Assembly (NCBI GenBank): GCA_947627155.1
Contig: CANQUX010000002.1
Span: 1 to 64,000 of the forward strand
Length of the DNA stretch: 64,000 bases
Source: an uncultured Alphaproteobacteria bacterium
GTDB taxonomy: Bacteria > Pseudomonadota > Alphaproteobacteria > CAAHEQ01 > UBA3637
Direction of reading: 5' to 3'
Numbering within the stretch: position 1 is the stretch's first letter; each line of letters opens with the position of its first letter. Both the position numbers and the translations under genes were made by a program. Positions 15,119-53,227 of the stretch are shown here, piece by piece. The notes under the pieces are model-generated. The model searched no databases. It was not told the origin of the DNA and saw only the letters and a program-made list of their open reading frames with translations.

Positions 15119-15236
15119 CTTGTTGTTTCCCTCCTATTAGGTTTGTGTTTGAAATTTGTACCGTAAAGTCGGGTAAATAAACGGGTATTGCTAAATTTTT
15201 TCGCTAACAACGCTCAAAAATAAGCAATTACCTAGT

Positions 15237-15422
15237 TTATTTTCCTTTCTTCTTTAACCCAATATCTCGTACGCCACTGACACCGAGTAAAATGCCCATG
15301 GCCGTTAATAAATACTCCCAGTCCACTACCGGAAGACCCGTTACCGGTGCAATCAAGCAGTTATGGAGGAACCCGTAACACAGAATCCACCCGAGGGCCG
15401 GGATCCAAAGCCTCTTTTTCAT
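15237..15422 (-). CDS. Putative holin
   Basis: 61 residues with two or three hydrophobic segments (LWIPALGWILCYGFLHNCLI; LLTAMGILLGVSGV) and a basic tail GLKKKGK, typical of small phage holins that open the inner membrane for the endolysin. It overlaps the lysozyme gene stop by four bases. Assignment rests on size, hydrophobicity and location. Confidence 0.6.
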   Translation of the reverse strand: MKKRLWIPALGWILCYGFLHNCLIAPVTGLPVVDWEYLLTAMGILLGVSGVRDIGLKKKGK

Positions 15423-26009: not shown

Positions 26010-27263
26010 TTAAAGCTCAAGACTATTTGGATTTAACAAAAAGTCCTTTAACCCTATTATCGTAATTCCTTTTTCATCGTGTTTGGGAATAATATCCCCA
26101 CCAACAATGATGATTTTTTTGAAAGAATCCGGAATATTTATTAAAGATTTTTCTTCTTGTTCTCTTTTCTCTATATTTGACATTTCATATGCTGATTGAA
26201 TGTAATAACGTTTGCTCCCTTGGTTAACAACAAAATCAATTTCCGCTTGTTTTTTGGTATATTGATTATCTTTTTCTCTTTCTTTTAATTCTATATTTCC
26301 GACATCTACTTGGTATCCTCTAATTATCAGTTCGTTATAAATAATGTTTTCCATCAAATGAGTAGGTTCAATCTGCCTAAAATTTAACCGAGAATTACGT
26401 AATCCGGCATCAATAAAGTAGTATTTAAAAGGCGTGTTGAGATATTTTTTACCCTTTATATCATATCGCAAAACCTTATTTACCAAAAAAGCTTCCGAAA
26501 GATACAATAAATATTGTTTTATCGTTGGTTCCGAAATAGAACTTTTTTGCACACTTTTAAAAGTATCAGACAGTTTTTTAGTATTAGTTAAACATCCGAT
26601 ATTAGAGGCAACAACATCTAGTAATTCTTCAAACTCTGTTTCATTTTGAATTTTATTGCGATCAATAACATCTCGAATGTATGTTTCCTTAAATAATCTT
26701 TTCAAATAATCTTTTTTATCAGCATCTTCCTCAAATTTAAATAACGCAGGCATTCCTCCATATGTACAATATGCATCCCAAGCTTTGTTCCAATCACCTC
26801 CTGTGACCTCATAATATTCCGCAAAGCTGAGCGGATATATGCGAATTTCATCACCACGTCCGCGAAACTCTGTTACAACATCAGTGGAAAGAAATTTTGA
26901 ATTACTTCCGGTCACATAAGTATCAAGGTTTTTGATGTGTAAAAATCCATTTAAAACACTTTCAAAATCCTCCATCATTTGGACTTCATCAAGAAGTAAA
27001 TAATACATATCATTGTCTTTAATGGCAGAAGTAACATAATTATAGCATTTATCTGGATTACGATATTCTCGGTACTTTCTATCATCCAAGGCAATTGTAA
27101 GTATGTGATCATCTGCTATTCCGGCATCCAACAAATGCTGTTTGAAAAGTTCAAACAATAAATATGATTTACCACATCTTCTAACACCACTGACAATTTT
27201 AATAAATCCGTTATGTTTGTGCTTAATTAATTTGTTTAAGTAGTAATCTCTTTTAATTTCCAT
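26010..27263 (-). CDS. AAA_14 / DUF4143 family ATPase (inserted cargo gene)
   Basis: 417 residues from ATG 27263, with GGAGTGCAAG before it (a second ATG twelve bases upstream is less well placed). Walker A SGVRRCGKSYLLFELF, Walker B YYLLLDEVQMM, sensor-like YVTGSNSKFLS; the C-terminal DUF4143 part includes AEIDFVVNQGSKRYYIQSAY, a PD-(D/E)XK-like strand. These ATPases are widespread and of unknown role; some seem tied to toxin or defence functions. It has its own promoter and terminator, sits between tail chaperone and tape measure, and is not a normal tail component: a moron. Confidence 0.85.
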   Translation of the reverse strand: MEIKRDYYLNKLIKHKHNGFIKIVSGVRRCGKSYLLFELFKQHLLDAGIADDHILTIALDDRKYREYRNPDKCYNYVTSAIKDNDMYYLLLDEVQMMEDFESVLNGFLHIKNLDTYVTGSNSKFLSTDVVTEFRGRGDEIRIYPLSFAEYYEVTGGDWNKAWDAYCTYGGMPALFKFEEDADKKDYLKRLFKETYIRDVIDRNKIQNETEFEELLDVVASNIGCLTNTKKLSDTFKSVQKSSISEPTIKQYLLYLSEAFLVNKVLRYDIKGKKYLNTPFKYYFIDAGLRNSRLNFRQIEPTHLMENIIYNELIIRGYQVDVGNIELKEREKDNQYTKKQAEIDFVVNQGSKRYYIQSAYEMSNIEKREQEEKSLINIPDSFKKIIIVGGDIIPKHDEKGITIIGLKDFLLNPNSLEL

Positions 27264-27284
27264 CTTGCACTCCATTTTATATCT

Positions 27285-27341
27285 CCGCCCATTTGGGCGG
27301 TTTTATAAAATGATACTAATTAATAAAAACACAAAAGTCAA
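27285..27341 (-). promoter_or_regulatory. Own promoter and leader hairpin of the DUF4143 gene
   Basis: Minus strand TTGACT (complement of 27336-27341), 17-base spacer, TAGTAT (27313-27318). The leader contains CCGCCC-AAAT-GGGCGG (27285-27300), which on the plus strand is followed by TTTT and could also stop antisense transcripts. Confidence 0.6.
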
Positions 27342-27350
27342 GTCTTCATT

Positions 27351-28078
27351 TTATATTTTCGGAAAATCATCTTTTGTCATATCGCTCAATCCTGCTTTTA
27401 GGCCTTGGATACCAGAAGATAAAAGCTCCGTCATTAATTCCATGTCAAAATTTAAATGTTTCGCTATTTCTAACGCTTCGCTGAGATTTGGCTCGGAAAG
27501 TTTTAATAAAACCTCCCAAGCCTGATGTCCTTCTGTGGTTTTTAAGGTTGTTTCGATGTATCGGCATCTGTAGATAGGACAGTTGATTCCTTGTTCTCCG
27601 CATCCTTGGCAGTAGTTTCGCCCGGAGCCGAAGTGCCATCTTGCTCGGGCGTATATGCGTTTTTTTCGGCCTCGAGTATTTCTTGAATGCCGCAATACTG
27701 TTGCCTGAATATTTCGGCGATACTCCAAAAGTTCGTGAAGAGCTCCTCAATTTTGACCGGTGTCAGCGGTGCTTTTTCGTCTGTGTCGGCTTCTAAAATG
27801 CCGTCCCATTCAATAATACCCGCCAGCGCAAGACCCAAAATTAACTGCTGATCGGCAAAGGCTTCACGCTTTGTGATATCCTCTAAATCCGGCAAGTTTT
27901 CATCTTTTGCACCGTTTTCGCGAACATCTTTAATGCGCTTGGCCATATCGGCCACCTTAGAATTCATATAGGCTTTTGCTTCATAAAACACAGAAGAGGT
28001 GCAGGGTTTAACTTTAACCCGGACACCCATTCCCAAATCAAGCCAATAAGGCTCATTCTTAAATTTTAACTTTAACAT
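27351..28078 (-). CDS. Tail assembly chaperone GT fusion made by -1 frameshift
   Basis: The A AAA AAC heptamer (minus strand, 27665-27659) is in the zero frame. A -1 shift moves to an open frame ending at 27351, giving 140 + 102 = 242 residues. The T-like part starts KKRIYARARWHFGSG, has four cysteines spaced as in a small zinc-binding knuckle (YCQGCGEQGINCP, YRC), and ends in a helical domain (WEVLLKLSEPNLSEALEIAK). Such G/GT frameshifts with fixed ratio are conserved in long-tailed phages. The track shows the second frame only as a separate ORF (27351-27728) with an artificial start. Confidence 0.75.
27542..28078 (-). CDS. Tail assembly chaperone, lambda G-like (zero-frame product)
   Basis: 178 residues (KLKFKNEPYWLDLGMGVRVK; ADQQLILGLALAGIIEWDGI). 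It lies between tail tube and tape measure genes, the fixed place of tail chaperones, which coat the tape measure before the tube is built. The last 38 residues after EAEKNA are low-complexity acidic. Codons 138-140 contain the slippery A AAA AAC, see the fusion entry. The start follows the inverted repeat at 28081-28163, which contains its ribosome site AAAGGAG. Confidence 0.8.
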   Translation of the reverse strand: MLKLKFKNEPYWLDLGMGVRVKVKPCTSSVFYEAKAYMNSKVADMAKRIKDVRENGAKDENLPDLEDITKREAFADQQLILGLALAGIIEWDGILEADTDEKAPLTPVKIEELFTNFWSIAEIFRQQYCGIQEILEAEKNAYTPEQDGTSAPGETTAKDAENKESTVLSTDADTSKQP

Positions 28079-28080
28079 TA

Positions 28081-28163
28081 ATTGAATCTCCTTTGAAATA
28101 TGTAAATAAAGAAATTGAAAAAGATAAAAATTAATTGTTTAGATATTTGAGAGGGGATTCAAT
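28081..28163 (-). promoter_or_regulatory. Inverted repeat A enclosing the Shine-Dalgarno of the tail chaperone gene
   Basis: Arms 28081-28106 and 28138-28163 match at 22 of 26 positions as reverse complements, loop about 31 bases. One arm overlaps the stop codon of the tail tube gene; the other contains the AAAGGAG of the chaperone gene. One of four regions with this layout. Confidence 0.65.
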
Positions 28164-29100
28164 ACCCCTCCACATCATTAATCAATTGAACGGTTACCAT
28201 TTTGCCGAGTTCGGCATTCTTAGCCCCTTGAAAATCGTAAGAGCACTCAATGCCGCCCGGGCCTGAAATGGAACGTTTCGGTTTTGGCAGATAGACTTCA
28301 TGGCAGGTAATAACCAATTTTTGTGTTTCGGAGAGCTGATAACCAAGCTCCATGTCCACTGGCACACCGGTTCTTGCCTTGTCCATTAAAGAGTTATCGC
28401 CATAACGAACTGCAATCGAACCGGATAAAGAGGCCACTCCCAAATCAATAGCTTCAACCTTACCATCGCTCCGAATTGTCTCAATTTTTTCAAGGTTATT
28501 TGAATAGGTAACCGAGGCACCGGTTACATTGGCCAATGTTTCGCCACCGGATTTGATAAAACCTTGAAATTGTGAAAAGCGCGTATAATTTTTGATTTCA
28601 GGTATTTCGGAAACAGATGTTTCAAAGGCTGTTTCGCTTTGTGCCATTAAAGAAACTGTAGCTTGCGCTTCACCGGACCTGGCAAAGTTAAAGGCGATAG
28701 AATTCGCCCGTGCGCCAAGGAATCTGATATATTCAGGCACTTCGGCTAATCCTAATTCAAGTGAATAGCTCGGAAGCGAGGTTTTACCGCTGTCAAATGT
28801 ATGCGTATAAACACCATCCTCGTTGGTCGTTTCCGGAGCTCCGAAAACAGCTTTCAGCCAAATTCCGATGTTTCTGAGATCAACCGGTACTGACAAATCG
28901 CCTTCCACATTGATAACGTCTTGAAAAGGCGTGGTCGGATCGCGTCCGAGCCCCAAAACATTTGAAGAAATAAGACCTTGTTCGCTATCAATAGCGCTTG
29001 AGGCAAACGGTACTTGGGTATAAGTTCCCGAAGAAAGAGTACCGTAAGTGCTTTCTTCAGCGATTAATAGTTTGGCATTCCAGCCATATGCTCGTGACAT
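28159..29100 (-). CDS. Major tail tube protein
   Basis: 313 residues from ATG 29100 (MSRAYGWNAKLLIAEESTYG), with GGAGGC before it; the longer track start at 29112 would place the ribosome site inside the gene. Matches siphovirus tail tube proteins (GLISSNVLGLGRDPTTPF, VEGDLSVPVDLRNIGIWLKA, ATVSLMAQSE). Its copies stack as hexamer rings around the tape measure. A C-terminal immunoglobulin-like part, as in lambda V, is possible but not clear. Confidence 0.85.
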   Translation of the reverse strand: MSRAYGWNAKLLIAEESTYGTLSSGTYTQVPFASSAIDSEQGLISSNVLGLGRDPTTPFQDVINVEGDLSVPVDLRNIGIWLKAVFGAPETTNEDGVYTHTFDSGKTSLPSYSLELGLAEVPEYIRFLGARANSIAFNFARSGEAQATVSLMAQSETAFETSVSEIPEIKNYTRFSQFQGFIKSGGETLANVTGASVTYSNNLEKIETIRSDGKVEAIDLGVASLSGSIAVRYGDNSLMDKARTGVPVDMELGYQLSETQKLVITCHEVYLPKPKRSISGPGGIECSYDFQGAKNAELGKMVTVQLINDVEGY

Positions 29101-29375
29101 TTTAGCCTCCATTTCAAGGGGGATTCACAGCCCCCAACAAGTTAATAAAATTTGATTTGCGCCGTCAGATTTTTGCAGGTGTAGCAATCTACATCAATAA
29201 AATCTGACAAGCAGGGCGGATTTTAAGACTTGCCCTACGGGTCTGTTTGCGGTTATCATCTAATTTGTCGCAAGCCTTGCAAATAGTGACGCTATTGGCT
29301 GCGCCTTGCTCCTTTTATCTGATTAACCGCAAATCAGATTGGGAGCCGCGAAGCCCCCTTAAAATGGAGGCTTTT
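29101..29375 (-). promoter_or_regulatory. Inverted repeat B: 275-bp structured intergenic region before the tail tube gene
   Basis: End arms 29101-29137 and 29339-29375 agree at 29 of the inner 34 positions, and four of the five differences still allow G-U pairing in the transcribed strand. The arm at 29101 contains GGAGGC, the tail tube ribosome site. The interior holds more hairpins (GTCAGATTTT / AAAATCTGAC; GCGGTTA / TAACCGC) and only a 21-codon ORF. No protein gene is convincing. Confidence 0.7.
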
Positions 29376-29382
29376 CCCTTTG

Positions 29383-29808
29383 TTAAATTAAGTTAGAATT
29401 TGAGGTGTATTCAAGGACAATGGGAACGATCGCACCTTTTATGGGGATACCGCCTTCGACCGGTTCTTCCACAAATTCAGGTGGTCCTGCATACATATAA
29501 TCAACTTTACCACCAAGGCTCGGATTCTCTTGTAAAAGTTCGCCAATCTGGACTAAAATCTTATCAAGAGTATGATCGCGCTCAGCCGGTGTTTCCTTTT
29601 GAACGATGACCTCCAGTTCGGCCCGATGTGTGAAAATGTAGCAAGGCGGCGATAATAAAATCTCCGGCTCGCCGACATTACCATCGAGCAGAATAACCAA
29701 ACCGCTGTCAGGGATTTTTTGCGGCAGAGGATCATTGCGCTTAACGGACACATCAAGCGTTGAAAGCCTTTCAAATAAAGCGTTTAATACGATTTCTCTT
29801 TTACTCAT
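29383..29808 (-). CDS. Tail terminator / completion protein (lambda U-like)
   Basis: 141 residues (NALFERLSTLDVSVKRNDPL; YIFTHRAELEVIVQKETPAE). Family members upstream of tail tube genes cap the tail and join it to the head; some databases call relatives acyl-CoA transferase by error. Start chosen at ATG 29808 with the GGAGGACTG site lying in inverted repeat C. Confidence 0.7.
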   Translation of the reverse strand: MSKREIVLNALFERLSTLDVSVKRNDPLPQKIPDSGLVILLDGNVGEPEILLSPPCYIFTHRAELEVIVQKETPAERDHTLDKILVQIGELLQENPSLGGKVDYMYAGPPEFVEEPVEGGIPIKGAIVPIVLEYTSNSNLI

Positions 29809-29809
29809 C

Positions 29810-29971
29810 AGTCCTCCTTAAAGGTTATTGAAGTTTTAGAATTTGATATTTTTTAATTTTTAGATTTGGATTTTTGGCGAAGATGTATGAGATATACTTC
29901 AAGACAAAAATTCAAAAAATAAAGGTTAAAAAATGCTAATTATGAAATTATGATAACTTTTAAGGAGGACT
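29810..29971 (-). promoter_or_regulatory. Inverted repeat C linking the end of DUF6441 to the tail terminator ribosome site
   Basis: Arms 29810-29828 and 29953-29971 match at 18 of 19 positions. One arm is the last codons and stop of the DUF6441 gene (AGTCCTCCTTAA), the other is the AAGGAGGACT ribosome site of the next gene. About 124 AT-rich bases lie between with no ORF. Confidence 0.7.
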
Positions 29972-30538
29972 ATCTCTCCAATTTTGTAAAATCAAGCTCG
30001 GCACTTTGTTTTGCCAACGCTCGCTTTCACTTTCAAAGTTAATTAATTTCGGCATTTTGACCTGAGGCACCAAGATAAAGGCGATGACCGTCTTTTTCTT
30101 TTGGATATGGACAAGTAATGAACAGGTATTGCGGCGATACACAAACTGTAGCCGCACGCCTTTCATCTGTTCATAAAGTGCCGGTGTCATACGTTTACCG
30201 CGTGCTTTTTTCGGGATTGCATCGGTCGGAATGGCAAGCCATAAACCGTTTTTGCCTCTGATAATGCTTGCGTATTCAAAGCCCTGCATAATCTTTTCGG
30301 CATTAGAATAGACCTGACCGGCCGCGCTGATACTCGGCTTTCCTTTCGGATAGACGACACCGCGCCAAGTGTTGGCCATACGAGAACTCATACCAGCCGA
30401 GCGGACCTGTTCACGCAAAGACGTTTTAAGTCCATTTGTTGCCGCCGATATTCCTAACGTCACAGCCTTGGCACCTTCTGAATAGTGCTTTTCCATGACA
30501 TCAGACAGTTTTCCTTGTAGTGCAAGTTTTAATTGCAT
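29960..30538 (-). CDS. DUF6441 family neck/tail protein
   Basis: 192 residues from ATG 30538 (MQLKLALQGKLSDVMEKHYS), which overlaps the previous stop by ten bases. Contains TWRGVVYPKGKPSISAAGQV and GLWLAIPTDAIPKKARGKR, known from DUF6441 phage proteins that lie between head-tail joining and tail terminator genes (lambda Z place). Its C-terminal codons form one arm of inverted repeat C. Confidence 0.75.
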   Translation of the reverse strand: MQLKLALQGKLSDVMEKHYSEGAKAVTLGISAATNGLKTSLREQVRSAGMSSRMANTWRGVVYPKGKPSISAAGQVYSNAEKIMQGFEYASIIRGKNGLWLAIPTDAIPKKARGKRMTPALYEQMKGVRLQFVYRRNTCSLLVHIQKKKTVIAFILVPQVKMPKLINFESESERWQNKVPSLILQNWRDSPP

Positions 30539-30822
30539 AGCACATCGACACTCCATATCAGATTATGAATATCTTTGACCGGTTCCGTATGTACCCGATA
30601 AGTGACCGCATCTGTTTCTATCGTATCCCCGACAGCTAAATCAGGCGCATCAGAAATCCGAATCTTCATAAAATGCGTGTTGGTGTGAGCATTAACAAAA
30701 CCCACACCAACAATTTCATCCGGTTCGGTCAATAAAAAAAGGACTTCACGTCCTTGATAATTCCCGATCGTTCCGCACCGACTAAACAGGCTGTCCACCG
30801 CCTTTTTGAGAGGAAGGGTCAT
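30529..30822 (-). CDS. Head-tail joining protein, lambda FII-like
   Basis: 97 residues from ATG 30822 after AGGAGGTAAAG (MTLPLKKAVDSLFSRCGTIG). Small beta-rich protein (YQGREVLFLLTEPDEIVGVG; AVTYRVHTEPVKDIHNLIWS) at the FII place. It forms the head-tail interface by context. Overlaps the next gene by ten bases. The track start 30903 reads through the previous gene. Confidence 0.65.
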   Translation of the reverse strand: MTLPLKKAVDSLFSRCGTIGNYQGREVLFLLTEPDEIVGVGFVNAHTNTHFMKIRISDAPDLAVGDTIETDAVTYRVHTEPVKDIHNLIWSVDVLCN

Positions 30823-31015
30823 CTTTACCTCCTGTTTCATCAGGTTTCTGTGGTTGCTGTGGCTGTGTTGCCGGCTTTTGACCACCTTTAACAGGCACTG
30901 CAAAACCGCGTTCTATCAGACTTTTTGCATCTGCTTCGTTCAGGTCATACTCCTTACCGGGAGCAATTTCTCTGCCGGCAGATACAACTAATGTAATCAA
31001 GGCCTTAATACGCAT
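30782..31015 (-). CDS. Small head protein, lambda FI-like position
   Basis: 77 residues: an N-terminal fold (KALITLVVSAGREIAPGKEY, SLIERGFAVPV) followed by a Gln/Pro/Gly-rich tail (ATQPQQPQKPDETGG). The start resembles short phage domains found after major capsid genes. Disordered tail suggests a packaging or assembly adaptor like FI. Overlaps the next gene by 41 bases. Confidence 0.6.
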   Translation of the reverse strand: MRIKALITLVVSAGREIAPGKEYDLNEADAKSLIERGFAVPVKGGQKPATQPQQPQKPDETGGKDDPSSQKGGGQPV

Positions 31016-31024
31016 TTATACCTC

Positions 31025-32053
31025 CTAACCAATGGTTGCACACAATGTTGCATTCGGACGATAAGGAACGATCAAAGGCGCAGACTGCAATAACAGCCAA
31101 CGAACCGATGGATCTTCTTCAACCCACGACTTCGTAAAGTAGCGATGAGCGGTCCAGTTTGCTTTTTCATCATGAATGGCTCCATAGCAACGGGTACCTT
31201 CAAGTCCGTCTTTGGCGCCCAAAATAACTGTCTTTGACGGCAAAAGTTTTGTTTCAACGCCGGTATCATTGATATAAAGATCATTATAAACATAAATATC
31301 AAAGTCACCGATAGAACCGACAAAGCGCGCTTTTGAGTTTTCACCGCGTATAAACGGATCCACATTCAAAGTGTTGTTTGTGCCTCTGCGGTAGTCCAAG
31401 AACTTTTTGACATCATCTTTTGAACGAAAGATTTTCCAAGCATCCGGATCCATAATGACAGTTTTTGCCACAACCCCGGATTTGCTTTGAATCAAATCTG
31501 CCCAATCTTCAAGGTCGCTTATCGGATTAACTGCCGCAGTTTCCCATGTAGCAGAGCCGATCAGAGCTTTTGTCAAGGCCTCATCTCGCCCGAAATTAAC
31601 TGTTGTTGACGGATAACCATCGCCGGAAACAACAACTTGTCCGGTTCTTAAGATTTCAGCCGCCATAACTTCTTCACGACGTGTCAAGTTTTCCAACTGG
31701 TCGGTCAAAGTTGTAGCCAAGGCGCGTTCATAACGTTGAGCCGGAGATAATGCGCCGCCTATTGTTTCACCGGCAATGCGTTTATACGGAATATTCGCAT
31801 CAAAGCGACGTTTGTCTTTCACATAAGCCGGCTTGAATGATTTGGTCTGATAACCACCGCTATCAACGACTTTTCCGGGAAGCAAAGGTGAAACAAACGG
31901 AGAAATGCGCGGTTTACTGTCCGTCACATCAAAGAAAATTTCTTCTTTATCCGAAGTTTGCACATTCGGGAAGAAGGTGTCGAGCAAAAAAGATGAAGGC
32001 GTATGTAAACGCTCAACGACTTTTGCGAGCACGTTAGTAGAGAAAATATCCAT
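31025..32053 (-). CDS. Major capsid protein, lambda E-like
   Basis: 342 residues (FSTNVLAKVVERLHTPSSFL; FFPNVQTSDKEEIFFDVTDS; KVVDSGGYQTKSFKPAYVKD), the GpE family with HK97 fold. Lambda gpE is 341 residues. It follows protease/scaffold and decoration genes in lambda order. The ribosome site AAGGAGC lies in inverted repeat D. It should be the most abundant virion protein. Confidence 0.9.
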   Translation of the reverse strand: MDIFSTNVLAKVVERLHTPSSFLLDTFFPNVQTSDKEEIFFDVTDSKPRISPFVSPLLPGKVVDSGGYQTKSFKPAYVKDKRRFDANIPYKRIAGETIGGALSPAQRYERALATTLTDQLENLTRREEVMAAEILRTGQVVVSGDGYPSTTVNFGRDEALTKALIGSATWETAAVNPISDLEDWADLIQSKSGVVAKTVIMDPDAWKIFRSKDDVKKFLDYRRGTNNTLNVDPFIRGENSKARFVGSIGDFDIYVYNDLYINDTGVETKLLPSKTVILGAKDGLEGTRCYGAIHDEKANWTAHRYFTKSWVEEDPSVRWLLLQSAPLIVPYRPNATLCATIG

Positions 32054-32057
32054 ATAT

Positions 32058-32325
32058 AGCTCCTTAAATTATAATATTATTACATTTGTGCAAGAAGAAA
32101 AAATGATGTAATGAGAAGCAAATTTTTTGCAGAAATACTTATTGATATTTCAAAGAAAATTTGCAAACAGAACACATTTTTTATCTTGCCTTCGGTTTAG
32201 TTTTTATGGGTGCTCCCTTTGTCATAATATTTGCCAATATGCTCAATATTGTCTGCATATTATTCCTTGTGTTCACCTCATAAAAACGTGAACACAAATA
32301 TGATAATATTACGATTTAAGGAGCT
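32058..32325 (-). promoter_or_regulatory. Inverted repeat D: 268-bp intergenic region before the major capsid gene
   Basis: Arms 32058-32090 and 32293-32325 match at 29 of 33 positions; all differences are transitions and two of them keep G-U pairs. The left arm includes the AAGGAGC of the capsid gene; the right arm lies just after the decoration gene stop. A nested hairpin GTGTTCAC / GTGAACAC occurs at 32270-32296. Contains a 25-codon ORF. Confidence 0.7.
32181..32258 (-). CDS. Possible 25-residue basic peptide in the capsid gene leader
   Basis: ATG with AAGGAATAAT before it, 25 codons (MQTILSILANIMTKGAPIKT...) ending in KPKAR. It is basic and might bind RNA, or be chance. Below the track cutoff. 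No homologue known to me. Confidence 0.25.
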   Translation of the reverse strand: MQTILSILANIMTKGAPIKTKPKAR

Positions 32326-33782: not shown

Positions 33783-33904
33783 TATTTTCTCCTGTTGTTA
33801 AACCTAATTCGGCGAGTTTGGCAGTTTGCCTATCATACGTTTTGTTATCTGCATATTACCGGTAATCCGGCGAAAGGAACCAGAAAAACTAATTTTCCTC
33901 GCTA

Positions 33905-35314
33905 TCAACGCTCGTCAAAAAGTTTTTTCATACGTTCCTTTTCCCTTGCTCGTTGTTCCAAGACTTCCTCCCAGTCCAAGCCTTGACTTGCACATTCGGC
34001 CTCTAATGTCGAAAGCCCGATATCCATGCGGATTTGGCAGGCCTGAGCTTCCTTGACCGGATCAACCCAGCCGCGTCCCGGGCCGATCCACTTGCATCGG
34101 GTGTAAGCATAGCGATTTTCGTAAAAGTCAGGCGCATCAACCAAGCCTTTATTGACGGCTTCTTCCAACCAAAGCTCATAAACCGGCGTGGCCCAATAAG
34201 TTGATAGCCATTGTCGGCGACCGTTAAAGTATCGCCAAGCCTCGAGCAATGCCGACCGGGCTGACGAATAATTGGTCTTTGAAAAGTCTTTCAAGAGCAA
34301 TTCATAAGGAATGTTAAGGCCGGTTCCGATATGGCGGAGCAAGTTTTCAACGAAAGTTCCATAAGCCGAGTTCGGTCGTGATGGTGTGAATGGCGCGACT
34401 TTATCACCAGGAAAAACAGGGATGATAGAGCCACCTTCAAGTTTAACCTGCCAATCCTTTTTCGCAGACAGGTAATCATCACTTGAGCCGCCGAACAGTT
34501 CGTTCAGGCTTTCGCCATCCATCGGAGTTTCAATAAATGCAGCTATCATTGCGTTGACGATCGCGGCCTGAAGCTCGGATCGCTCGTAATGGTCCAACAT
34601 TTTGAACATCGGCATTATGGAACTGAGGACAGGCTTTCCACGAGATTGGCCGATACGACTGATATCGTGAACGTGTAGAACTCGTCTCCGGCCAAATGAA
34701 GTAAATGCCGGAATACGCTCCCAAGACGCAGTTCCTGTCCAAAAGTCGCCCGGGTGGTCTTTTTGAATATAGTAGGCTATCGGTGCACCATATTTATCTA
34801 TTTCAATACCACCGCGGAGGGTTTTGCTATCGGCTTTCCCGTTTGGATTAGAGAGCCGGTCCGGTTCTACCAACTGAATTGCAGTAGAAAACTTCCGGTC
34901 TTTCAGCCATAGCGGAATAGCCAAAGCCTCGCCGTTGATCAGGCAAGACTTGAAAACTTGTGTCGTCAGGCCATGGAAAGTTAAGGATTTGGCCGCATCA
35001 CATTCAAAAGTTTCGGACCAGGATCGCCATAAACTTTCAACATGTGCCTGCCATTCTTCTTCCCATTCCTTGGTTTTGCCGAGTGCCTTATAGTCCGGTT
35101 TAGCCGATAAACGAAACCCGGTGCCGACTATGTTATCGGACAAGGTCTGCATTGCACCGGCGGCAATTCCATGATTTCGCGTTAAGTCACGCGACCGGGC
35201 AACAATGGTGTCCAATTCCGGCAACAAATCGCTGTCGGCAGAACCGCGACCCGGAAGCCACGAGGCAATTTCTCGCAAAGTTTGCGAAGCTGCTTTGTGT
35301 GATGTGTCTGTCAT
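33905..35314 (-). CDS. Portal protein, lambda B-like
   Basis: 469 residues from ATG 35314 (MTDTSHKAASQTLREIASWL), which overlaps the gpW stop by one base; the track start 35347 reads into gpW. Contains VEPDRLSNPNGKADSKTLRG, QKDHPGDFWTGTASWERIPA and RIGQSRGKPVLSSIMPMFKM, typical of lambda portals. Forms the dodecamer through which DNA passes. The C-terminus has ECASQGLDWEEVLEQRAREK, also typical. Confidence 0.88.
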   Translation of the reverse strand: MTDTSHKAASQTLREIASWLPGRGSADSDLLPELDTIVARSRDLTRNHGIAAGAMQTLSDNIVGTGFRLSAKPDYKALGKTKEWEEEWQAHVESLWRSWSETFECDAAKSLTFHGLTTQVFKSCLINGEALAIPLWLKDRKFSTAIQLVEPDRLSNPNGKADSKTLRGGIEIDKYGAPIAYYIQKDHPGDFWTGTASWERIPAFTSFGRRRVLHVHDISRIGQSRGKPVLSSIMPMFKMLDHYERSELQAAIVNAMIAAFIETPMDGESLNELFGGSSDDYLSAKKDWQVKLEGGSIIPVFPGDKVAPFTPSRPNSAYGTFVENLLRHIGTGLNIPYELLLKDFSKTNYSSARSALLEAWRYFNGRRQWLSTYWATPVYELWLEEAVNKGLVDAPDFYENRYAYTRCKWIGPGRGWVDPVKEAQACQIRMDIGLSTLEAECASQGLDWEEVLEQRAREKERMKKLFDER

Positions 35315-39348: not shown

Positions 39349-40611
39349 TTATGCATTATAAGTGCTTGTTTCTGCATTATTTTTTGATATTTCGCCACTT
39401 TCTAACAGAACAGCCTTTTTACCGGTCCAATCTTCCCATCTTTTCACGATGACATCGCAGTATTTCGGGTCCAATTCCATCAATCTTGCGACTCGACCGG
39501 TCTTCTCACAGGCGATTAAAGTCGTTCCGGAACCACCAAATCCGTCCAATACAATATCACCAATCTTGGAACTGTTGTTAATTGCACGCTCCACTAACTC
39601 CACCGGTTTCATGGTCGGATGAAGATCATTGTGCTGAGGTTTATTATATTCCCATACATCTGCCTGATTTCGGTCACCACACCAATAATGAGGCTTATCG
39701 TTCACCCAACCGTAAAGAATTGGTTCATATTGCCGTTGATAGTCAGCTCGCCCCAATGTAAAGGTATTTTTAGCCCAAATGATAAAAGTGGACCATTTGC
39801 CGCCGGCTTTCACAAATGCCGAGTAAAGGGTATGAAGCTCGGAAGAACTCATGCAAACATAGGCAGCACCTTGGCAATACATCAACATATTGGTGCAGGC
39901 ATCGTAAAGGAACTGTTCGAAATCTTCGCCCAGATTATCATTCATAATGGTGCGCCCATGGTTCGGACTGGTATGATACCGGAGTTTGTCTTTCATCGTT
40001 GCACCATAGTTCACGTTATAAGGAGGATCGGTAAAAATCATGTCGGCCACGTCGTTCTGCATTAACTTTTTGAAATCATCTATCATGGTTGTGTCACCAC
40101 ACATCAAACGATGATTACCTAGCTGCCAAACGTCGCCACGTTTTGAAGTTGCGTCAACCGGTTCTTCAGGAATAATATCATCTTCAGCATTCTCTGTTTC
40201 TTGAATATCACCGAAGTTTTCAAGTGCTTTCAGTTCATCATTAGTAAAGCCGAGGTTAGCGAGGTCAAAGTCTTCGTCCTTCAGCTCGCCAATCTCCAAC
40301 GCTAACATCTTTTCATCCCAACCGGCGTTGAGGGCGATCCGGTTATCGGCAATGACCAAGGCTCGGCGTTGCGTTTCGGTCAAGTGAGGTAAACGTATAA
40401 CCGGCACTTCAGTCATGCCAAGGCGTTGTGCCGCCAAAAGTCTGCCATGTCCGGCAATAATGACATTGTCCGAACCGATAAGAATTGGGTTTGTAAAACC
40501 AAACTCCTTGATACTGGCCATAATTTGGGCAATTTGTTCGTCATTATGTGTCCGTGAGTTGCGAGCATAAGGGATAAGTTTATCCACCGGAAAGTTTTGT
40601 TGAAAATCCAT
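39349..40611 (-). CDS. DNA methyltransferase with ParB-like N-terminal domain
   Basis: 420 residues from ATG 40611 (MDFQQNFPVDKLIPYARNSR), AAGGTG upstream. Residues 1-110 are a ParB/Sulfiredoxin-type domain (IAGHGRLLAAQRLGMTEVPV), about 170-410 an N4/N6 methyltransferase of the beta order: motif IV MIFTDPPYNVNYG precedes motif I IVLDGFGGSGTTLIAC. Phages use such enzymes to protect their own DNA from restriction. Separate from the defence system on the left; no matching nuclease nearby. Neighbour of the phage SAM synthetase. Confidence 0.9.
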   Translation of the reverse strand: MDFQQNFPVDKLIPYARNSRTHNDEQIAQIMASIKEFGFTNPILIGSDNVIIAGHGRLLAAQRLGMTEVPVIRLPHLTETQRRALVIADNRIALNAGWDEKMLALEIGELKDEDFDLANLGFTNDELKALENFGDIQETENAEDDIIPEEPVDATSKRGDVWQLGNHRLMCGDTTMIDDFKKLMQNDVADMIFTDPPYNVNYGATMKDKLRYHTSPNHGRTIMNDNLGEDFEQFLYDACTNMLMYCQGAAYVCMSSSELHTLYSAFVKAGGKWSTFIIWAKNTFTLGRADYQRQYEPILYGWVNDKPHYWCGDRNQADVWEYNKPQHNDLHPTMKPVELVERAINNSSKIGDIVLDGFGGSGTTLIACEKTGRVARLMELDPKYCDVIVKRWEDWTGKKAVLLESGEISKNNAETSTYNA

Positions 40612-40644
40612 TTTACACCTTGAATTTATGCCATAAAACAAAGG

Positions 40645-40742
40645 GTGACCACCCAAAATTTAAAAGTGACCACCCAAGACTTTAATTTGTTTTTATAACT
40701 ATTTGATATTAATGTATTTTTAAGTGACCATTGACCACCCAA
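40645..40742. repeat. Three copies of GTGACCACCCAA-type repeat
   Basis: GTGACCACCCAA at 40645-40656 and 40666-40677, and a variant with inserted TTGACCACCCAA around 40724-40742. They stand upstream of the methyltransferase gene, in the 263-bp space to metK. Could be operator or replication iteron sites. Otherwise this space shows only the doubtful ORF at 40709-40891. Confidence 0.55.
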
Positions 40743-40891
40743 AATTTTTGTGTTTTGCTAAAAAAATGCCGCGGCTTGCGTCCCCGCATACGATCCGAAG
40801 CGAGGAAGGACCCGCCGGCCTCGACCAATCGAAGTTGAGCGACCAACTGGCGGAACTTCTCGGGAACTGCGGGGTTAAGCAACAAATCCAT
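40709..40891 (-). CDS. Doubtful 60-residue ORF between metK and the methyltransferase gene
   Basis: The frame (MDLLLNPAVPEKFRQLVAQL...) overlaps the end of metK by 17 bases. The Gly-rich sequence AGGGGG touches its ATG, too close for a normal ribosome site. Locally GC-rich compared with neighbours, hinting at coding or imported DNA. A plus-strand ORF covers the same bases. Not recognised. Confidence 0.25.
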   Translation of the reverse strand: MDLLLNPAVPEKFRQLVAQLRLVEAGGSFLASDRMRGRKPRHFFSKTQKFWVVNGHLKIH

Positions 40892-41918
40892 CCCCCTGAA
40901 TCGGAACGATTGTCAACACTTGTAAAGTCTTGCGACATAATTTGGTGTAGATCGGTCGATCCAAGCCGAAGAACTTGACTAAAGTGTTCGGTTTTTGGTT
41001 GCAAACAAGCGGACTGTTCGTAACAACACCGTTCTTTACGGTCCGGATCAAGCCGCTAGGCAATTCAGACTTACCAATGCAAGATGAAAGGTAGACGAAG
41101 CACTCATCATTGTCGCCGAGGTGTTCAGTTGCAAGGTAGCGCGCATAAATATTTAAGGTTACATCGGCTTTGCTGGCATCCTTAGTCCAAGGACTACCTC
41201 CGCCAATCGGGCAAGCGGTAGAGTAGAAGTCACAGGCCAATTTCCGACCGGTAACACCGCAATCTGCTATAGATGAGTGATATTGATACGTTCCTGTGCC
41301 ATTTACAATGATGCGTTTCGGCTCTTCTCCCAGAGTTTCAATGATAAACTTTGTTAAGTCTTCATCTATCAACATTGGAATGGCGACAATAGACGTTTCA
41401 ATACCGTTTAAATCGTTCAATGTAATCTGCGTTTTGATGTCTAATCCAAGATTATCAGACGTAATAGCCTTTTCATACAATGCAGCATTAAGCTTGCGAG
41501 CTAAAAATAACTCACGATTGATATGACCTTCGCCTTGACACGCATACCCCACAAACACGCCTTGATCACCCCAACCATCAGCTTCGATACCTTTATTGAT
41601 GTCTGCAGACTGCTGACCAATCATGTTGATAACTTTGATTTTGTTAATATTAATAGCATAATTTCCCCAGATTTCAGCATAATGTTCATCATAGCCTATT
41701 TCTCGGAGAGCTTCTTTGACATAATCTTCAACTTTGCTTAGTGAAACATTGCCTTTAATTTCACCTCCAAGAACAACATTGTTATCTTTGATCATGACTT
41801 CCACTGCATAATGAACGTGAGGATCCTGCTCAATAAGCCTATCTAAAATGTAACTTGAAATGTAATCGGCTGTTTTATCCGGGTGGCCGATTGAAACCGC
41901 TTCAGCTGTTCGTTTCAT
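40875..41918 (-). CDS. metK: Phage-encoded S-adenosylmethionine synthetase
   Basis: 347 residues against about 385 for host enzymes. Conserved parts: start AVSIGHPDKTADYISSYILD (ATP-site His), ADGWGDQGVFVGYACQ, NGTGTYQYHSSIADCGVTGR, and GGGSPWTKDASKADVT in place of the usual GAFSGKDPTKVDRS. It makes SAM from ATP and methionine; the divergence suggests a phage lineage. It lies between replication genes and a DNA methyltransferase that needs SAM. Preceded by a terminator-like hairpin directly before AAGGAGCG. Confidence 0.85.
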   Translation of the reverse strand: MKRTAEAVSIGHPDKTADYISSYILDRLIEQDPHVHYAVEVMIKDNNVVLGGEIKGNVSLSKVEDYVKEALREIGYDEHYAEIWGNYAININKIKVINMIGQQSADINKGIEADGWGDQGVFVGYACQGEGHINRELFLARKLNAALYEKAITSDNLGLDIKTQITLNDLNGIETSIVAIPMLIDEDLTKFIIETLGEEPKRIIVNGTGTYQYHSSIADCGVTGRKLACDFYSTACPIGGGSPWTKDASKADVTLNIYARYLATEHLGDNDECFVYLSSCIGKSELPSGLIRTVKNGVVTNSPLVCNQKPNTLVKFFGLDRPIYTKLCRKTLQVLTIVPIQGDGFVA

Positions 41919-44070: not shown

Positions 44071-45777
44071 TTATATGAAACCGAGTTCTCGTCTTTGTTC
44101 TTCCCATGAATAAGGAAAACGTTCTCTTAATAACCGCCTTAGAGTAAGAAGTTTTGGCTGACGTCCTTCAAGTATTGCCATAATAATATCTGGAGCAAGT
44201 GTGGTAAGTCTTACGATTTGTCCAAGATAAGTATGGTCACAATGTTCGTGACGTGATAGTTCGGTTAATGACCATTTTTTTGTTTCCATGATGTCTTTCA
44301 AGTAAAATGCCTGTGCGATCGCATTAAAGAGTTTTTCATCTCGAACAGGAGTATTTTTGTTCGGTGGTGTTGGCTCGACTATTTTAATGCTTCCTCGTTT
44401 GCGACCGAAGTTTACCGGATATTTAAGAACTAATTTTTCTTTACAGTAGCATTCGTCTTTAACAACCATTTGATTTTCATATATATTTGCTCCATAAGGA
44501 TTAAGCTTTATTTCAATGTAATTTTGATGTAAAACAACCTTATCAACAATTTCGCCTATAAAATCATGAACAGTTGCCGGTTCAAAATATTGAAATGCCT
44601 CACCAATATTATCTACAAGCTTATAGGCCTCAGTAGCCGTATATTTTGGATTTATCTGACTTAATTGCTTTGCTATCTCCCGCATAATTTCCGGTGATTT
44701 AAATATTTGTTGTATTTTATCTAAAACAAAAGTGTTAAGCTCACCGGCGGGTACACTTCCCAGTTTACAGGCACACCTTTGCACTCCTTCTTTTATCGAT
44801 TTTAATGAACTATAATACTCATAATATTTGTTATCATTTTTACAGCGTGTAGGAATCATTGTTCCACAGCATTCGCATTCTAAAAGTCCTTTTAGCAAGC
44901 TATTTCTAATAACTCTCGATGGACGGAATGCGTTTCCTAAATTTTCGGTTTTAAAACTTTTTATACGATCCCATATTTCCTGATCAATAATTGCCTCATG
45001 TTGTCCCTCATATAATTCACCCTTATAAGGCATTTTCCCAAGATATATCGGATTATTCAAAATATTATTTACCATTGCATGATTAAACACTTCTTTGTTT
45101 TTTAAAGTTCCATCTTTGTTTTTACGTTCTTTTGGTTTATATCCTCGGTCAATGACATGTTGTGTCGTATGAACTTCGGATCGGGTCCTGATATAATCTT
45201 CAAATATAAACCGAACAATTTCAGCTTCGGCAGGCTCTATAATCAGCTTTTTATCTTTTAGCGTATAACCGAGAGGGACAGATCCACCGGTCCACATTCC
45301 TTTTTTACGACTGGCTGCAATTTTATCCCGAACTCGCTCTGCCCCAAGTTCACGTTCAAATTGTGCAAACGAAAGCAGTATATTCAATGTTAACTTTCCC
45401 ATGGAGTCACAGGTATTAAAATGCTGTGTAACGGATACAAAAGAGCAATTGTGTTGTTCCAGTATTTTCACAAGTTGTGCAAAATCAAGTAAAGAACGTG
45501 TTAAACGATCTATTTTATAAACGACAATCATATCAACTTTACCTTGTTCAACATCTTTAAGGAGTTGTTGCAGAGCCGGTCTTTTTAGATTGCCGCCGCT
45601 GAAACCTCCATCATCATAATGTTCAGGTAATGCCTCCCAACCTTGATGTTTGAAACTCTTAATATAGTTTTCCCCGGCTTCCCGTTGGGCCTCCAAGGTG
45701 TTAAATTCCTTTTCAAGACCTTCATCTGTTGATTTTCGTGTATAAATTGCACATCTTATTATCTTTTGTTGTTCCAT
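44071..45777 (-). CDS. Large serine recombinase, prophage integrase
   Basis: 568 residues. Catalytic domain with Ser in AIYTRKSTDEGLEKEFN and arginines in YKIDRLTRSLLDFAQ; E-helix region FAQFERELGAERVRDKIAAS; recombinase domain (YTLKDKKLIIEPAEAEIVRF); zinc ribbon LLECECCGTMIPTRC...RCACKLG; and coiled-coil/C-terminal part with a HTH-like end (NAIAQAFYLKDIMETKKWSL TELSRH). This class inserts phages at a short attB without host factors. It sits at the right end of the prophage, next to DUF2924, a usual partner in alphaproteobacteria. Confidence 0.9.
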   Translation of the reverse strand: MEQQKIIRCAIYTRKSTDEGLEKEFNTLEAQREAGENYIKSFKHQGWEALPEHYDDGGFSGGNLKRPALQQLLKDVEQGKVDMIVVYKIDRLTRSLLDFAQLVKILEQHNCSFVSVTQHFNTCDSMGKLTLNILLSFAQFERELGAERVRDKIAASRKKGMWTGGSVPLGYTLKDKKLIIEPAEAEIVRFIFEDYIRTRSEVHTTQHVIDRGYKPKERKNKDGTLKNKEVFNHAMVNNILNNPIYLGKMPYKGELYEGQHEAIIDQEIWDRIKSFKTENLGNAFRPSRVIRNSLLKGLLECECCGTMIPTRCKNDNKYYEYYSSLKSIKEGVQRCACKLGSVPAGELNTFVLDKIQQIFKSPEIMREIAKQLSQINPKYTATEAYKLVDNIGEAFQYFEPATVHDFIGEIVDKVVLHQNYIEIKLNPYGANIYENQMVVKDECYCKEKLVLKYPVNFGRKRGSIKIVEPTPPNKNTPVRDEKLFNAIAQAFYLKDIMETKKWSLTELSRHEHCDHTYLGQIVRLTTLAPDIIMAILEGRQPKLLTLRRLLRERFPYSWEEQRRELGFI

Positions 45778-51422: not shown

Positions 51423-53227
51423 GCGCTCACCTTCATTAAGAGTTGTCCGGCCGATACATTGGCTCCGCTTTGAACCGTTATTTCCGTGACTTTGCCGCTC
51501 ACACCGGCTTTAACGCGCGTTTCCATTTTCATCACCTCCACAACACAAACATCCGTATTCGCTTCAACCGTTTGTCCGGCCGATACCAAAATTTTGGTTA
51601 TAACGCCGGGTGTGGGCGCTTTAATTTCATGCGCCGAACCACCGCCGGACGCAGGCACGGAACCGGATGCGGGCGTTTGAGCGGCGCCTGTGTCGGTTAA
51701 CAGCTCAATCGGATAATCAACGCCGTTCACAATGGCTTTATCTTTTTGAATTTCAACATGATACGCTTCACCCGCAACAGAAATGTCATATACGCCGTTT
51801 GACGACACGGCAGGCTTCGGTTTTTCTTTATATCGCACTTTAACCGACCCTTTTCCCTCTAAAAAGGCAATTCCCTTATCTCCGCAAGACGCGGCAATAA
51901 ACACGTTTTCATCGGTTATGGGTAAATGCGCCTCTTCAAGCATTTTTTCATAATGGCGACGCGATTTCTTTTCGTTTCTGTCGTTAATGGACAAAACCGA
52001 TTCGGTTGTCGGCTCTAAATGCAACTGCTCGGCGGCAATTTTCACCACCTCTGCATCGGGTTTGACAGGTGTTTGTCCGAAATAACCCAAAACCATTTTA
52101 CCGTACCCTTCGGCAATTTTTTGCCACGGTCCGATCATCACATTATTAAATGCCTGTTGAAAATAAAATTGAGAAACGGGCGTTACCGAGGTACCGAATC
52201 CGCCTTTCCGCACCACTTCCTCCATAGCGGTAATAATTTCGGCATATTTATCCATCAAATTATTATCACGCAACATTTGCGTATTGGCCGTTAACGCGCC
52301 GCCGGGCATGGGTGACCAGGGAATACGCGGATCGGCATGCAAGGCTTCCGGCGGAATAAAATAATCACTTAACGCGTCTTTTAACTGTTCTTCAACTTTC
52401 ATAACGGCATCGATATTGCAATCAAGCTCATAATCCGTTCCGCGCAGGGCATGCCAAAACGTGGCAATATCCGGCTGACACGTTCCCCCCGACACGGGCG
52501 CCATCGATAAATCAACAATATCAGCCCCGCCTTCAACGGCTGCCAAATAGCAGGTTAAGCCCGTTCCCGCCGTTTCATGCGAATGAAACTCAATCGGCAC
52601 TTTTTTCCCGAGCAATTTGCGCGCCCGTGCAATGGTTTCCCGCACAACCGACGGTACTGCCGTTCCCGAGGCATCTTTAAAACAAATCGAATCAAAAGGA
52701 ATATCGGCTTTTAAAAACTTTTTCAATCTTTCTTCGTAAAAATCAGGCGTATGCGCTCCCGTGCAGGACGGCGGCAATGACATCATGGCCACGCAAAGCT
52801 GATGCTTCAAGCCGGCATTTACAATACATTGTCCGCTGTAAATTAAGTTTTGCGGATCATTTAACGCATCAAAGTTACGAATGGTTGTCATCCCGTGTTT
52901 TTTAAATAAATCGGCATGCAGTTTAATCATTTCCGAACTTTGCGAATCGAGCGCCACCACATTCACGCCGCGCGCCAACGTTTGTAAATTAACATCGTTG
53001 CCGCAAATCGCACGAAACGAATCCATCACGTCAAAAGCGTTTTCGTTATTATAGAAAAATGCCGCCTGAAACGAGGCGCCGCCACCCGCTTCAATATAGC
53101 GAATACCGGCATTAACCGCCTCTTTCACGACGGGCAAATAATCTTTGGATAAAACCCTGGCACCGAAAACGGATTGAAAGCCGTCTCGAAACGCCGTACA
53201 CATCAATGAAATTTTTTTCTTTGTCAT
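51419..53227 (-). CDS. oadA: Oxaloacetate decarboxylase alpha subunit with biotinyl domain
   Basis: 602 residues from ATG 53227 ([20 protein letters not shown]), AAAGGA upstream. HMGL-like carboxyltransferase domain (1-300; [27 protein letters not shown] metal site), conserved PYC-type domain, and a C-terminal biotinyl domain with [16 protein letters not shown], biotin on Lys. It moves CO2 from oxaloacetate to biotin for the membrane subunit. Note [10 protein letters not shown] instead of the common DTTLRDGHQS at the N-terminus: a change near a metal-binding Asp. Confidence 0.9.

Follow-up and report, generated by a model that had tools for sequence, protein, structure and literature searches.

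Palindromic, probably mobile elements at gene junctions in the late operon of a lambda-like prophage from gut Alphaproteobacteria

Several kinds of small repeated DNA elements in bacteria and their phages combine inverted repeats with positions close to genes. Rickettsia palindromic elements (RPEs), known from Alphaproteobacteria, are small palindromes that fold into long hairpins; they have spread between sites and can even lie in frame within protein-coding sequences (PMC2229807, PMC10969869). MITEs, among them ERIC, Correia/NEMIS and RUP, are mostly non-coding and intergenic, have terminal inverted repeats and are transcribed into hairpins; they are flanked by TA target duplications, and some have related IS elements (PMC2229807). 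Among phages, the SAS/ESAS of cluster K mycobacteriophages form a series of inverted-repeat sequences containing a Shine-Dalgarno (SD) site just before several start codons. The ESAS consist of a shared 13-bp SD motif and 17-bp repeats with a spacer of mostly 4–13 bp, precede non-structural genes and are conserved in the cluster, and the study describing them saw little support for hairpins in the mRNA (PMC3203893). The same work mentions mycobacteriophage mobile elements (MPMEs), ultra-small elements that are polymorphic between near-identical phages (PMC3203893).

The locus studied here lies in a 64,000-nucleotide stretch of DNA from an uncultured alphaproteobacterium (positions 1 to 64,000 of contig CANQUX010000002.1, assembly GCA_947627155.1), which we call the window. 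Its late operon is lambda-like and runs on the minus strand with genes for terminase A, portal B, protease C, decoration D, capsid E, FII, Z, terminator U, tube V and chaperone G; gene names were checked against PHROGs and Pfam and agree with those of a preliminary description of this DNA. The window also contains a large serine recombinase (44071-45777) that is probably the prophage integrase, and the prophage region holds an S-adenosylmethionine synthetase adjoining a ParB/N6-N4 DNA methylase gene (40875-41918 and 39349-40656). The preliminary description had reported inverted repeats at four late junctions, each pairing the next gene's SD with the region of the previous stop codon. All four are indeed found there on the minus strand, far beyond chance, and the shared design was confirmed as well (Table 1).

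Table 1. Inverted repeats, elements, SD sites and downstream genes at four late-operon junctions of the window
Feature	Position	Strand	Details
D-E inverted repeat (before major capsid)	arms 32293-32325 / 32058-32090	-	33 nt, 88% complementary, 202 nt between
U-V inverted repeat (before tail tube)	arms 29339-29372 / 29104-29137	-	34 nt, 85%, 201 nt between
Z-U inverted repeat (before terminator)		-	18 matching nt at ends (67-nt arms at 72%); 124 nt between 18-nt arms; 162 nt total
V-G inverted repeat (before tail chaperone)		-	29-nt arms, ~25 nt between, 83 nt total
Type-1 element	32058..32325	-	268 nt, AGCTCC...GGAGCT, between D and E; terminal stem and two long hairpins
Type-2 element	29104..29372	-	269 nt, AGCCTCC...GGAGGCT, between terminator U and tube V
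Type-3 element	29810..29971	-	162 nt, AGTCCTCC...GGAGGACT, between Z and terminator U; Z stop codon inside left arm
Fourth (V-G) element	28083..28161	-	79-83 nt, TGAATCC...GGAGATTCA; V stop codon inside left arm
Capsid gene SD AAGGAG	32060..32065	-	in type-1 right arm, 6 nt before ATG (32053)
Tail tube gene SD GGAGG	29106..29110	-	in type-2 right arm
Tail terminator gene SD AAGGAGG	29813..29819	-	in type-3 right arm
Major capsid gene (lambda E-like)	31025..32053	-	downstream of type-1 element
Tail tube gene (lambda V-like)	28159..29112	-	downstream of type-2 element
Tail terminator gene (lambda U-like)	29383..29808	-	downstream of type-3 element
Tail assembly chaperone gene (lambda G-like)	27542..28078	-	downstream of fourth (V-G) element

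Folding against 200 dinucleotide shuffles, a control proposed together with the preliminary description, gave z-scores of -9.85 (D-E), -10.05 (U-V), -5.80 (Z-U) and -3.09 (V-G), the V-G hairpin being the weakest of the four. Among 4382 SD-preceded starts scanned in the window and related loci, all arm scores of at least 15.5 came from these elements or others like them. As had been claimed, the downstream gene's SD is buried, with a predicted unpaired probability of 0.001 (D-E), 0.000 (U-V), 0.001 (Z-U) and 0.148 (V-G).

For comparison, relatives of the prophage were taken from viral contigs and genomes, all of them metagenome-derived assemblies. The nearest relative (L040), with a 99% identical capsid and D-E flanks that are 96–98% identical at the DNA level, lacks all four elements and has gaps, measured between BLAST ends, of 15 (D-E), 5 (U-V), 7 (Z-U) and 2 nt (V-G). 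The D-E gap is 8–22 nt in close viral relatives covering this junction versus 280 nt in the window, while one contig ends at that point; across the close viral relatives together with L040, L042 and L061, gaps at the four junctions are 2–22 nt. Empty sites were seen for type 1 in L040 and L008–L020, for type 2 in L040, L061 and L042, for type 3 in L040, L010, L057 and L059, and for the V-G element in L023, L024 and L040. Given these short gaps, the four hairpins do not belong to a conserved design but have been inserted, unless the relatives have lost them.

Other relatives carry coding morons in these late-operon gaps, including genes for Fic-like, zeta-like P-loop and DUF4143 proteins. Morons judged by eye to be zeta-toxin-like P-loop and Fic genes lie in L009 (8127-9719) and in the portal-protease gap of L041, L046 and L056. 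The window itself has an inserted AAA/DUF4143 gene (26010-27275) that matches the PADLOC candidate defence family PDC-S01 (E 5e-120) and whose SD and start codon are covered by a 19-bp hairpin with a 2-nt loop (27273-27312). A second, shorter repeated hairpin with a GACGARCGTTGWTAGYGAGGAAA core occurs in the window at 33800-33930 and 15173-15237 (minus strand), in the U-V gap of L045 and in L189; its sites are the 3' end of the portal gene, the region after a holin-like gene and the U-V gap in relatives, and it is another small element present at multiple sites.

Three of the four window elements recur in other prophages. Type 1 occupies the D-E junction in the window, G019, G023, G014 and G028, but precedes decoration gene D at the C-D junction in L052 (L053, a second contig from this MAG, has the site empty) and a tail-fibre-like gene at a tail/fibre junction in G028; the latter copy contains a run of N, and the readable part on its right matches the right half of the D-E copy from the same genome exactly. 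Type 2 is also found at U-V in L041, L020, L058 and L087, and type 3 at Z-U in L058 and L087. Further elements of the same 264–273-nt class are T5 before the portal gene (L014/L046), T6 before Z (L049), T6p in frame within the protease/scaffold gene (G023, G014), immediately 5' of where the internal scaffold gene has its SD and start, and T7, which lies inside a holin-like ORF of G028, breaks it and has no SD. T6p is translated in a frame that stays open through the element and encodes no transposase. A truncated T6p-like element, fused before an endolysin-like gene, was noted in L190 (G012:C4) just upstream of a holin-like gene at 51,585.

The type-2 copies of L020 and L058 are 92–94% identical to that of the window versus 64–75% in the 300-nt flanks, type 3 reaches 87.6% versus 64–68%, and type 1 is 91% identical between L050 and L052, whose flanking genes differ (58–61%). 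The elements resemble each other more closely than their surroundings do, and the case for horizontal movement rests chiefly on this contrast. Copies per genome are low (1–4, all types counted), with no second copy of type 2 found in the window's own genome (G000) and no full-length relative found for the V-G element; a 43-nt similarity of the latter to host contigs C23 and C24 was rejected as kinship, being an AT-rich region without hairpin or SD design. Around 50,700 phage records gave no match to type 1, type 2 or T6p, and 72,600 plasmids none to type 1. In exact-pattern searches of viral contigs type 2 was found only in L020 and type 1 nowhere, and among 385 genomes of the class pattern matches occurred only in members of the same group.

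We favor, with a probability of roughly 80%, the explanation that these are palindromic, non-coding, non-autonomous mobile elements inserted among the closely spaced late genes of a lambda-like prophage. On our best reading the four hairpins are recent insertions, and a hitherto undescribed MITE/RPE-like family of about 268 bases has type 1 as a homologous member and type 2 as a member by architecture. Counting against mobility are the lack of a detected transposase or partner, the low copy number and the missing target-site duplication, unlike in classical MITEs; near-constant length and strong covariation could instead point to a selected function.

One such function would be regulation, with long-range SD sequestration coupling consecutive late genes or setting protein ratios. 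Across copies of types 1–3 the predicted unpaired probability of the SD, located 5–9 nt from the start codon, is 0.000–0.002 and in many cases rises to 0.15–0.5 when a ribosome is simulated at the upstream stop codon, which starts -13 to +22 nt from the element start (-13 to +9 nt in the four window cases). Strong covariation (see below) also suits regulation. However, the simulated ribosome hardly frees the SD in the window's U-V junction (0.002) and in L052 (0.008) and causes no rise for V-G or T6, while in the empty alleles of the nearest relatives SDs are open and gaps are short or genes overlap or abut. The same element can precede different genes, and T7 breaks an ORF without offering any SD. 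Finally, if pairing had a role in mRNA, then G·U should exceed A·C, but one copy per type, folded with both treated alike, gave 23 G·U and 26 A·C wobbles, and this equality weakens the case for selection for mRNA control. We thus consider regulatory hairpins unlikely, and the idea in the preliminary description of a regulatory principle of this phage is not supported by a series that is absent from the closest relatives (2–15-nt gaps), moves between sites and phages, includes T7 and has no wobble bias for the mRNA strand. Translational coupling of the kind expected where genes overlap or abut in the empty alleles would rather be a plausible side effect of the elements, as far as the folding models go.

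Members of the main family are 264–273 nt long, with a terminal stem of around 30 bp, whose arms are the inverted repeats noticed initially, and, enclosed by it, two long hairpins. T5, T6 and T6p align from end to end and share a common fold with compensatory changes in 44 of 96 pairs, and three type-1 sequences have them in 15 of 100, so that the covariation suggested as a check of the preliminary description is strong; for type 2 the count is 1 of 103 pairs in copies too alike to judge. Collinear blastn matches link type 1 to T5 (E 6e-7) and T6 (E 0.004). A covariance model, R1, built from T5, T6 and T6p alone, without the window elements, recovers type-1 copies at full length (E 1e-12 for the window copy) and, with filters off, the window's type 2 with 57.5 bits and, weakly, type 3 with 22.4 bits, while the distant phage loci in a 779-kb set gave no match. 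As long palindromes suit this model, the type-2 match may reflect architecture rather than descent: Type 2 has the size and shape of the family but shares no blastn-detectable sequence with it, and type 3 and the V-G element resemble it in design only. The earlier view that the four sequences differ and hence are not one repeated element is correct only in part: Type 1 has a homologous family, type 2 fits the model of that family by architecture, and three of the elements recur elsewhere.

Near-constant length, a conserved three-way architecture and compensatory changes would also suit a structured non-coding RNA or an RNase III processing site in the late mRNA with a function of its own, e.g., in mRNA processing or assembly. 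RNase III could plausibly act on the stem of around 30 bp, as has been reported for transcripts of Correia elements (PMC10969869). Yet Rfam searches at both thresholds yielded nothing relevant, with no match of the window region even at E 1, the elements occur in a minority of phages and at differing sites, and wobbles have no strand bias; we regard this explanation as quite improbable.

In the T5/T6/T6p and type-1 alignments, both-side changes outnumber one-side changes, which together with the equal numbers of G·U and A·C appears to fit palindromes kept at the DNA level by a hairpin intermediate or by template-switch correction. Palindrome correction would leave the same trace if the palindromes had been made locally beside each gene by template switching or inverted duplication, without any mobile element, and the arms do differ between sites. 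But such an origin is very improbable given homologous interiors at different sites in phages with 58–75% identical flanks: Correction may maintain palindromes, but leaves their spread unexplained.

Excision of the elements from AG to CT leaves the exact length of the empty site in 5 of 10 comparisons and a length within 2 nt in the others, and these junction lengths indicate that there is no target-site duplication; the few nucleotides beside the element usually differ between filled and empty sites. A 3-bp target duplication (GAT, ATA, AAA) that seemed possible by eye was ruled out by the length comparison. Missing duplications, exact empty lengths and the open holin frame that results from cutting out T7 in silico would also be compatible with self-splicing introns or intron-derived elements, but these are hardly credible with no group I or II match (and so no conserved catalytic core) in Rfam, a T6p frame open through the element, mostly intergenic copies and two ends that pair with each other.

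Intergenic copies separate the native SD from the start codon, with the old SD kept on the left and a new one 5–9 nt before the start, whereas T6p is inserted before the native SD, which stays. This placement is most simply explained as the survival of harmless insertions. Under the mobile-element explanation, comparison of the loci indicates that copies have travelled from gene to gene and from phage to phage within one group of gut Alphaproteobacteria, and the junctions show that they insert without target-site duplication. Judging from the survivors, copies would mostly persist between native SD and start codon or just before the SD, where the SD-like end of the element (GGAG) may replace the displaced SD so that an essential gene is still translated. 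In a palindrome the left end would automatically be an anti-SD, burying the new SD in the mRNA, and a ribosome finishing the previous gene would open the left arm, possibly restoring a coupling like that of the abutting genes before insertion.

No autonomous partner or transposase was seen among the gap insertions, and the element arms are highly variable. The L050 prophage has a 248-aa reverse transcriptase (PF00078; 4794-5537, minus strand) and a DUF4143 ATPase inserted between its portal and protease genes; this reverse transcriptase was discarded as a driver because it occurs only in that prophage. More tentatively, and with considerable doubt on our side, the elements might form a new class adapted to translation-initiation sites that uses a DNA or RNA hairpin intermediate, inserts without target duplication near starts and carries an SD at one end and an anti-SD at the other to keep operon coupling.

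Late operons have almost no room for insertions, and a palindromic family surviving mostly at SD-ATG junctions would illustrate a way for selfish DNA to exist inside essential, coupled genes. Filled and empty alleles of one operon are natural experiments on translational coupling, and the family cautions against taking strong covariation in a phage leader as proof of regulation. The mode of movement, without target duplication, is of interest as well.

The nearest known kinds are RPEs and MITEs such as ERIC and Correia. The elements share with RPEs their palindromic nature, several sites and in-frame copies in genes, but RPEs are chromosomal and around 105–150 bp long, while the elements here measure 264–273 nt, have two inner hairpins, are located in the late operons of phages and in many cases bring an SD. 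MITE-like are the terminal inverted repeats (types 1, 2, 5 and 6, T6p and T7) and the non-coding nature without transposase, but target-site duplications are absent and no partner was found. Lacking a target duplication, differing in length and with no partner found, the elements fit neither kind in full. MPMEs are around 440 bp long with short repeats and a small ORF, whereas the elements here are non-coding palindromes. The 13-bp GGGATAGGAGCCC-like repeat and the 17-bp inverted repeats with short spacer of ESAS are absent from arms and interiors here, and the elements are not conserved at the same gene across their phage group. As to the initial impression that no phage family with such a series had been described, ESAS are a published precedent for start-associated inverted repeats (PMC3203893), but one that is shorter, conserved and built on a single shared motif.
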